From positions 1 to 39,840 of the forward strand of contig LDXL01000009.1 of assembly GCA_001443365.1 (NCBI GenBank): a stretch of 39,840 bases of DNA, in the 5' to 3' direction. Every line of letters starts with the position of its first letter. Within the stretch, counting starts at the first letter, position 1. Below are positions 23,741 through 37,980 of this stretch, one piece after another. The position numbers and the translations under genes are program-made. Under the pieces are notes generated by a model that was given only the letters and a program-made list of their open reading frames with translations, searched no databases and had not been told where the DNA came from. This DNA is from Thaumarchaeota archaeon CSP1-1. GTDB lineage: Archaea; Thermoproteota; Nitrososphaeria; Nitrososphaerales; Nitrosopumilaceae.

Positions 23741-24451
23741 TTATTGATTAATTTCAATTATTCCTTGTTCAATTAAAAATTTTAGCGCAGATATTAATTC
23801 ATTTTCTGTAATACTACCATCTGCATATAAAATGAAGATATTTTTTACCCAATCTGGAATGTTTTGAACGTTTTCCAATTCTGATTCAATCTCAATAGAT
23901 TCCTCAGCAGATTCTGTTTTGCCAGTCTGATCAATTTCTTCAGTTGTATCAGTATCAGATTCCTCAGATTCTGGATTTTCTATAACTAGAATATTTTGAG
24001 ATATACTGGGTTTTATTATTGAAAATGTTGTGGCACCAATCGAGTTGCCATTTTTAGAAAACACTTCAATGGTATAATCACCTTGAATAATAGTACCATT
24101 TGTGTTAATTACATCATCATCTATCAAGTAGGCAATATCAGTACCTGCCTCTCCGTTACTTTTTTCACGAATTATGATTTCTTTTTCTGTAATTATTTTA
24201 TCAGTAGGAGTTTGAACTATTCGCATATAATAGAAACCATCGCTTGGATTAAAATTTAAAATATCAACATAAGCCCGAATCAATCTGTTATCAGAATCCA
24301 AATTAATTATAGAATTTCCAACAATTGAAACGCTTATCTGTGATTCTTCTTCCCAGCTTGTCTCTTCATCTGCTTTAGCTACATAACTTGTAGGTATTAG
24401 AAAAATTATAAAAATGGAAACTAATAACCAACTTTTAATTTCTGCTGCCAA
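23741..24451 (-). CDS. secreted protein with C-terminal tryptophan module
   Basis: 236 residues. The N-terminus is a signal peptide (WLLVSIFIIFLIPTSYVAKA, cleavage near residue 27). A beta-sandwich of about 110 residues follows, then an acidic linker (SEESDTDTTEEIDQTGKTES) and a C-terminal 37-residue module starting IPDWVKNIFILYADGSITEN and ending FLIEQGIIEI. The same module occurs in the genes at 30305 and 35344, where it is repeated. The start is TTG at 24451, needed for a complete signal peptide. It converges with the membrane gene at 22972, with 10 bases between the stops. Confidence 0.75.
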   Translation of the reverse strand: MAAEIKSWLLVSIFIIFLIPTSYVAKADEETSWEEESQISVSIVGNSIINLDSDNRLIRAYVDILNFNPSDGFYYMRIVQTPTDKIITEKEIIIREKSNGEAGTDIAYLIDDDVINTNGTIIQGDYTIEVFSKNGNSIGATTFSIIKPSISQNILVIENPESEESDTDTTEEIDQTGKTESAEESIEIESELENVQNIPDWVKNIFILYADGSITENELISALKFLIEQGIIEINQ

Positions 24452-24560
24452 TATAAGACTGTTACAATTCTGATTATTAAAAACCTGTTTGCATAATAAC
24501 TACAATCATCATTAAAACTGAATATAATTTTCAAAATGTTTTTGTTGTTATAAATTGGAG

Positions 24561-24623
24561 TTGGGCCGAACGCACAGCTGCACGCCCATGAGGTATGTGT
24601 CGACACAATGCGTTCGCGCCCAA
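24561..24623. ncRNA. very stable GC-rich hairpin, candidate small RNA
   Basis: TTGGGCCGAACGCA (24561-24574) pairs with TGCGTTCGCGCCCAA (24609-24623) over 14 base pairs with one bulged base (24617). The 34-base interior contains CAGCTG and a palindrome GTGTCGACAC (24597-24606). It is far richer in G and C than its surroundings and is the only such element in the 265-base gap. A TTATAAA-like box at 24549-24555 lies just upstream on the plus strand, and A/T runs follow. It could be a small RNA, a terminator-like structure or a DNA site. Strand and identity are unproven. Confidence 0.5.
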
Positions 24624-24658
24624 AAAAATTAAAACGAAATTGGCTTTAGCATCATGTA

Positions 24659-24673
24659 TGTTCAAGTTGGACA
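24659..24673. promoter_or_regulatory. inverted repeat TGTTCA-AGT-TGGACA
   Basis: A 6-3-6 inverted repeat. The preceding CATGTA and the following bases also match the copy at 3952-3966. It lies between the hairpin at 24561-24623 and the zinc gene ending at 24717. It may control the hairpin RNA. Confidence 0.4.
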
Positions 24674-24716: not shown

Positions 24717-24950
24717 CTAAGTAAAAATATCGAGCATCATCTCATCTATTTGCTCTATTTGTCCTTCAACAATTTTGTAGGCTGATTCTAAATCCTCATC
24801 TCTTACCAAGGAAACTTCGAGGGCACATGTAGGGCAATATAATATGCCTTTCCAGCTAGCGACGACTCTTCCCTGTAAATGATCGTTACATGATATGCAT
24901 TTGGAGTTAAAGGGATAAAAATACACAAAAGTACTTTCGCCTATTTTCAA
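24717..24950 (-). CDS. small zinc-binding protein
   Basis: 77 residues with a beta-rich N-terminus (FVYFYPFNSKCISCNDHLQG) and a second pair of cysteines (LYCPTCALEVSL), giving CxxC...CxxC for one zinc, followed by an acidic helix that could mediate dimerisation (LESAYKIVEGQIEQIDEMML). It starts at TTG (24950). A weak variant of the TGTCC-N-AACA operator pattern lies about 70 bases upstream at 25021-25035. The function is unknown. Confidence 0.65.
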   Translation of the reverse strand: MKIGESTFVYFYPFNSKCISCNDHLQGRVVASWKGILYCPTCALEVSLVRDEDLESAYKIVEGQIEQIDEMMLDIFT

Positions 24951-37913: not shown

Positions 37914-37930
37914 TGTTACAAATTGTAACA
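37914..37930. promoter_or_regulatory. operator-like palindrome 1
   Basis: TGTTACAAATTGTAACA is a perfect 8-1-8 inverted repeat in the divergent space between the genes at 37880 and 38031. A near-identical copy follows at 37964-37980. The spacing between centres (37922 and 37972) is exactly 50 bp, close to five helical turns, so proteins bound at both would lie on one face. The regulator is unknown; the winged-helix protein at 36700 is a candidate. Confidence 0.65.
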
Positions 37931-37963
37931 TGACAAATAAGGTTCTGATCAAAAGTTAAAAAC

Positions 37964-37980
37964 AGTTACAATTTGTAACA
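37964..37980. promoter_or_regulatory. operator-like palindrome 2
   Basis: AGTTACAATTTGTAACA is a 7-1-7 inverted repeat, the same as palindrome 1 apart from the outer pair and the central base. It lies 24-40 bases before the TATA-like box of the PIN gene. Confidence 0.6.

Follow-up and report, generated by a model that had tools for sequence, protein, structure and literature searches.

The window analysed here is the whole 39,840-nucleotide stretch of contig LDXL01000009.1 from Thaumarchaeota archaeon CSP1-1. Between two minus-strand protein genes it holds a hairpin at 24561-24623, preceded on the minus strand by an inverted-repeat operator. The features of the locus are as follows, with negative positions counted from the predicted transcription start.

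24717..24950, minus strand: upstream neighbour, gene for a 77-aa cysteine-containing protein without Pfam match
24659..24673, minus strand: inverted-repeat operator TGTCCAACTTGAACA (consensus TGTNCANNTTGNACA), exact match, -52 to -38
24644..24649, minus strand: TATA-like box CTAAAG, -28 to -23, read from the 37-nt leader
24563..24621, minus strand: predicted small RNA of 59 nt, hairpin from first to last base, placed by the 37-nt rule and the end of the conserved block
24609..24621, minus strand: 5' arm GGGCGCGAACGCA, from the predicted RNA fold and comparison with the related genome G003
24575..24608, minus strand: 34-nt loop, the best-conserved part (2/34 differences from G003)
24596..24607, no strand: 12-bp palindrome TGTGTCGACACA within the loop
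24563..24574, minus strand: 3' arm TGCGTTCGGCCC, from the same fold and comparison
24474-24483, minus strand: TATA-like TTTTTAATAA of the 236-aa gene, read from the sequence
23741..24451, minus strand: downstream neighbour, gene for a 236-aa protein with a signal-like N-terminus, without Pfam match

The first-pass annotation described a very stable, GC-rich hairpin with a 14-bp stem and one bulge, and its coordinates and pairs agree with the present analysis. The stem consists of TTGGGC/GCCCAA and CGAACGCA/TGCGTTCG with one unpaired G, and closes the 34-nt loop. The SalI-type palindrome reported inside it is GTCGAC, contained in TGTGTCGACACA. Compared with dinucleotide shuffles the fold scores z -3.4 on the plus strand and z -3.3 on the minus strand. 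At -30.6 kcal/mol on the minus strand, the hairpin is the lowest-energy 75-nt stretch among 15,906 scored over both strands, the runner-up reaching -26.7 kcal/mol. Its 75-nt stretch has a G+C content of 0.55 vs. 0.33 for the whole window. Stem length by itself is not rare, with at least 14 pairs found in 23 of 50 shuffled windows. What is unusual about the hairpin is its energy and G+C content rather than the length of its stem. The loop may contain a small upper stem, which is preserved in all three sequences of the genus. The hairpin is single-copy in the source genome (1.36 Mb, 10 contigs). A stem scan of the window found its longest stem, of 17 pairs, at 37922-37972.

Operator and predicted start

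The operator element at 24659-24673 reads TGTTCAAGTTGGACA. It has one exact copy in the window, and nine matches at ≤2 mismatches vs. 4.05 expected. The first-pass annotation had called the element at 24659 shared; its position is exact, and the sharing holds between genomes rather than within the window, as this is the sole exact copy there. A BLAST search with the G003 stretch in 250 family genomes gave intergenic matches in other genera with the upstream block alone in common. An alignment of 11 sites from three genera shows TGTNCANNTTGNACA followed by a looser YACA...CTAA part. The block is present in genera g3 and g16 and partly in g14.

The distance from operator to start was examined in the 250 genomes by an exact pattern, consisting of the operator and an ATG 24-54 nt further on, with the reversed pattern as control. 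The pattern returned 31 rows vs. one for the control, corresponding to 29 distinct places. Nineteen of these were excluded as copies of a single conserved coding gene, on the basis of a 254-codon open frame over the motif in G108 and less directly for the others: only a long downstream frame was read in G024, G051, G099 and G177, and the rest were judged from near-identical sequence. Among the other ten places a start codon lies exactly 37 nt after the operator in eight (7 ATG, 1 TTG), while one has its start at 36 nt and one has no start. These ten are not independent, as three represent one secreted-protein gene of this genus and three one CheY-like gene of g12, and the true start at the place in G231 may lie further in. 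Leaderless starts at a fixed 37 nt from the operator imply that transcription starts there.

The secreted-looking protein, of 104-105 aa, has its ATG exactly 37 nt past the operator in G000:C5:110550 (L238), G001:C53:4736 (L239) and G002:C2:74401 (L240). In all three genomes the first 45 nt of its mRNA, spanning the AUG, fold into a 16-17-pair hairpin (z -5.4, -4.3 and -3.0, respectively). In g12 the operator precedes the start of CheY-like response-regulator genes by 37 nt (L244 in G045, L245 in G046, L246 in G050), and in g15 by ~39 nt (L182 in G179, L230 in G177, L191 in G205). In 19 family genomes (e.g. L242, L247, L254, L265) the operator pattern is also found within a conserved protein gene, with the frame CSYCTYKAEP. 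By our reading this gene is presumably FO-synthase-like, and the pattern in it is probably a coding coincidence. A regulon scan with the operator should mask this gene.

A sequence-only model of the operator matched at E≤0.05 in 136 of the 250 family genomes, many of these necessarily by chance. Outside the 11 training sites there were 21 matches at E≤1e-3, which by our own, unblinded classification comprise nine non-coding RNA-like loci, five with a start codon at 36-37 nt, two with one at 39 nt, two inside long open frames, and three in no class.

Read along the minus strand, the window operator has 24659 as its last base, and the 37-nt distance then places the start on 24621. This base, the first G of GGGC, is paired with the stem's final C (GGGC...GCCC). 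Likewise, 37 nt after the operator in G003 lies the first G of GGGAA. In the window background, only 6 of 11,366 stretches of 65 nt fold at ≤-20 kcal/mol with their first base paired. The TATA-like box CTAAAG has equivalents at the same place in the leader of G000:C5 (TTAAAG) and in G003 (CTATAG). The predicted 59-nt RNA folds at -29.1 kcal/mol (z -2.9), and in the window genome the hairpin has no T-run after it.

With moderate confidence, we take the hairpin to be the body of a non-coding minus-strand RNA of ~59-63 nt that has its own operator-linked promoter and is probably under activator control. Transcription would begin at 24621, with the TATA-like box at -28 to -23 and the operator just upstream. 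The position of the operator upstream of this box suggests that the putative factor binding it would be an activator. An RNA folded from its first nucleotide would have a closed 5' end and display the conserved 34-nt loop. Most likely it would regulate post-transcriptionally, with this loop as the place of pairing or protein binding. The hairpin, the conserved block up to its 3' foot, the occurrence of the operator across genomes and the 37-nt spacing at protein genes are shown; that the RNA is transcribed, that its control is activating and not repressing, and that it acts in trans on targets are inferred. The first-pass annotation had left the choice between a small structured RNA and a DNA site; the RNA is better supported, given a start on the first stem base and conservation that ends at the 3' foot. 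It had missed that the RNA would lie on the minus strand and that the operator-like element is probably part of the RNA's own promoter.

Conservation in the genus and alternative readings

Among the four genomes of the genus, the element is also present in G003 and G001, in the same position and flanked by the same pair of genes. The 77-aa neighbour gene has no match in G002 (84% complete). A structure-model search of 400 genomes of the class returned nothing else credible; G001 itself was either not drawn or missed by the filters and is absent among the listed matches, so the absence of the hairpin elsewhere is unproven. Matches in G374 and G313 fall within long open frames and were discounted as chance, and a second match in the window's own genome scored 18.9 bits (E 0.23). 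The exact core pattern, searched in 84,980 GTDB species with near-window records possibly omitted, was found in JACZUQ010000025 only, at the position seen in G003:C66. In viral contigs the core pattern had no matches and the arms-only pattern had six, near chance for 16 fixed bases by a rough estimate.

By gene comparison G003 and G001 are near each other (pS 0.13-0.26), and the window genome stands apart from the two (pS 0.59-0.82). Synonymous sites in the neighbouring genes are near saturation between the window and G003, at a divergence of 0.60-0.82. Differences between these two amount to 1/15 positions in the operator, 11/37 in the leader, 5/25 in the arms, 2/34 in the loop and 36/54 in the 3' flank. 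The low counts in arms and loop against that in the flank indicate that the conserved block ends at the hairpin's 3' foot (24563). Within the arms, the window sets GGGC[G]C against GGCCC, where G003 has GGGAA[U] against UUCCC.

G001 retains the operator, and the stem is not formed in its predicted fold. Against G003, its arms differ at 10/25 positions and its flank at 5/54, and across the element 17/63 positions differ, mostly from G/C to A/T. As the arms have changed more than the flank, the stem is unformed and the changes run mostly in this one direction, the pattern in G001 is read as loss of the hairpin. The first-pass annotation had proposed that compensating stem changes among relatives would support an RNA. 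In a fixed alignment of three sequences two pairs have changed on both sides, one of them owed to G001; 68 of 500 shuffles attain the same two and the stem of G001 is broken, and the outcome of this check is mixed. Weak covariation, the decayed stem of G001, the failure of the hairpins to align between genera, the stem set ~12 nt inside the predicted RNA in g16 and the missing T-run all count against the RNA reading.

A reading in which the locus never yields RNA, and operator and hairpin with TGTGTCGACACA form one extended protein-binding region controlling the flanking genes, is unlikely. The perfect 12-bp palindrome lies in the best-conserved part of the hairpin and the two strands fold with similar stability, as would suit a DNA site. 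However, the 37-nt rule places the start of transcription on the first stem base, and the palindrome, present in G003, has been lost from G001, which kept the operator. The palindrome is also absent from the operator-linked loci of other genera.

It is highly unlikely that the hairpin is a decaying relic without present function, a formerly functional G+C-rich element such as an old mobile or structured sequence that survives by chance in two genomes. Its restriction to this genus and the G/C to A/T drift of G001 relative to G003 (17/63 positions) are consistent with decay. At near-saturated synonymous divergence, though, conservation spans operator and hairpin and stops at the 3' foot, and the predicted start hits the first stem base.

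Both neighbouring genes lie on the strand of the predicted RNA, and the hairpin could then be the 3' end of the 77-aa gene's mRNA or a 5' leader element of the 236-aa gene. This is given a similarly low probability: the operator and TATA-like box stand between the 77-aa gene and the hairpin, and in other genera operator-linked hairpins sit between convergent or divergent genes. The leader idea was dropped because the 236-aa gene has its own TATA-like box after the hairpin, 32 nt before the first codon, in the window and G003 alike.

Translation of the minus-strand frame through the hairpin is almost certainly wrong: the frame is open in G003 (81 aa) and also in the window, where it starts with TTG, but differences are spread evenly over codon positions (30/32/30; pN 0.61 vs. 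pS 0.72), G001 has two stops, and the product has no match in Pfam or phage records and only an E=8 match in plasmids. The earlier statement that no coding frame explains the hairpin thus holds.

Known classes were also compared with the hairpin. Rfam 15 gave no match in the window at the gathering score, and permissive scans only sub-threshold ones. In H/ACA guide RNAs an ACA box follows closely on the stem, on the 3' side of the pocket; here the 3' foot is followed by AACTCC in the window and ATCAAA in G003, with no ACA box. When folded, integron attC sites start with RYYYAAC (5') and finish with GTTRRRY (3'); by reading, the window has the two in the opposite order and G003 has not preserved these ends. 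A REP/MITE-type repeat, which has many copies in a genome, was rejected on the single genomic copy and the synteny of the copies within the genus, and a tRNA or tmRNA on ARAGORN reporting 0 genes in the window.

Operator-linked loci in other genera

Non-coding structured loci stand behind the operator, between unrelated genes, in g3, g14 and g16. The predicted first 65 nt were folded for 31 sites, which we chose by hand as non-coding. At the 13 sites of g14 the predicted RNA opens with ACAGA...UCUGU, which forms a 5-pair hairpin from base 1; its pairs are preserved at all sites (13/13), and a second stem comes after it. Most of the 11 sites of g16 begin A(A/C/G)GTGGAGTC; the stem is set back by ~12 nt from the predicted start, and at most sites it is followed by a T-run. 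The stem is internal or weak at the two sites of g3, and the singletons comprise G116, with 14 pairs from base 1, and G118, without structure. A hairpin at base 1 is therefore counted at 2/3 sites in g1, 13/13 in g14 (a short stem), 0/11 in g16, 0-1/2 in g3, and 1/2 singletons. Covariation is slight, at 0/8 pairs in g16 and 1/16 in g14, because the stems barely vary; these stems support the keeping of pairing, not compensation.

The conserved non-coding stretch of g14, ACAGAATAATCTGTGCCCAACATAACCCATACCTAGC and a stem behind the operator, was seen at L180, L181, L184, L186, L221, L223-L227, L234, L235 and L237, and had no Rfam match in the three loci scanned. At the four g14 loci whose neighbours were read, it lies between genes that we take, by reading, to be NAD-synthetase-like and Rieske-like. 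The g16 loci read lie between presumed M24-peptidase-like and methyltransferase-like genes, likewise named by reading. L189 (G116:C58:6280) is a distinct operator site in G116, with the 14-pair stem starting at +37.

The same operator stands at the same 37 nt before leaderless-looking protein genes of this genus and family and before gene-less hairpin loci of three other genera, which suggests that it marks a regulon. Aligning the hairpins across genera gave no alignment beyond the promoter, which is therefore the only part shown to be common. CAUACCU occurs in the RNAs of both g1 and g14, which is estimated to be within chance. A wider proposal would have one family regulator run a regulon of small RNAs and leaderless mRNAs, marked by the fixed 37-nt operator-to-start distance and often by a hairpin at base 1, with the small-RNA members rewritten by lineage: the same promoter, an unrelated hairpin, a different locus. 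This is speculative and we consider it doubtful.

Significance and comparison with known systems

In the open-access papers searched we saw no account of this operator or RNA, nor of any small RNA from this group that a named operator controls. If the readings above are true, the operator provides a sequence handle on a regulon of small RNAs, CheY-like response regulators and small secreted proteins, and does so in archaea for which metagenomes are the main source of knowledge. RNA 5' ends would then be predicted to the single base by the 37-nt rule.

Three systems offer comparison. Yfr103 of marine picocyanobacteria is a non-coding RNA with a conserved imperfect palindrome at -29 to -58, a suggested factor site (PMC5069720), and so resembles the window RNA in having a palindrome just upstream of its promoter. 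However, it is bacterial, ~300 nt long, present in several copies and very abundant, and no sequence relation is claimed. Archaeal TrmB-type activators bind where the window operator sits, centred near -45 (PMC4158304). There too a palindromic motif upstream of the TATA box is in the position for activation, but the motifs described in that work, such as TACT-N3-AGTA, are unlike TGTNCANNTTGNACA.

By analogy, the closest known system is sRNA154 of Methanosarcina mazei. It is intergenic, with a potential NrpRI operator, GGTA-N6-TACC, in its promoter; its transcription has been shown and it matters for nitrogen metabolism (PMC3177094). The two differ in operator, phylum and RNA, and the transcript of sRNA154 has been shown whereas the window RNA is predicted from sequence. 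Both are archaeal intergenic small RNAs, that of the window being predicted, with a potential regulator operator in the promoter, one of the marks of operator-controlled archaeal sRNAs of the sRNA154 kind.
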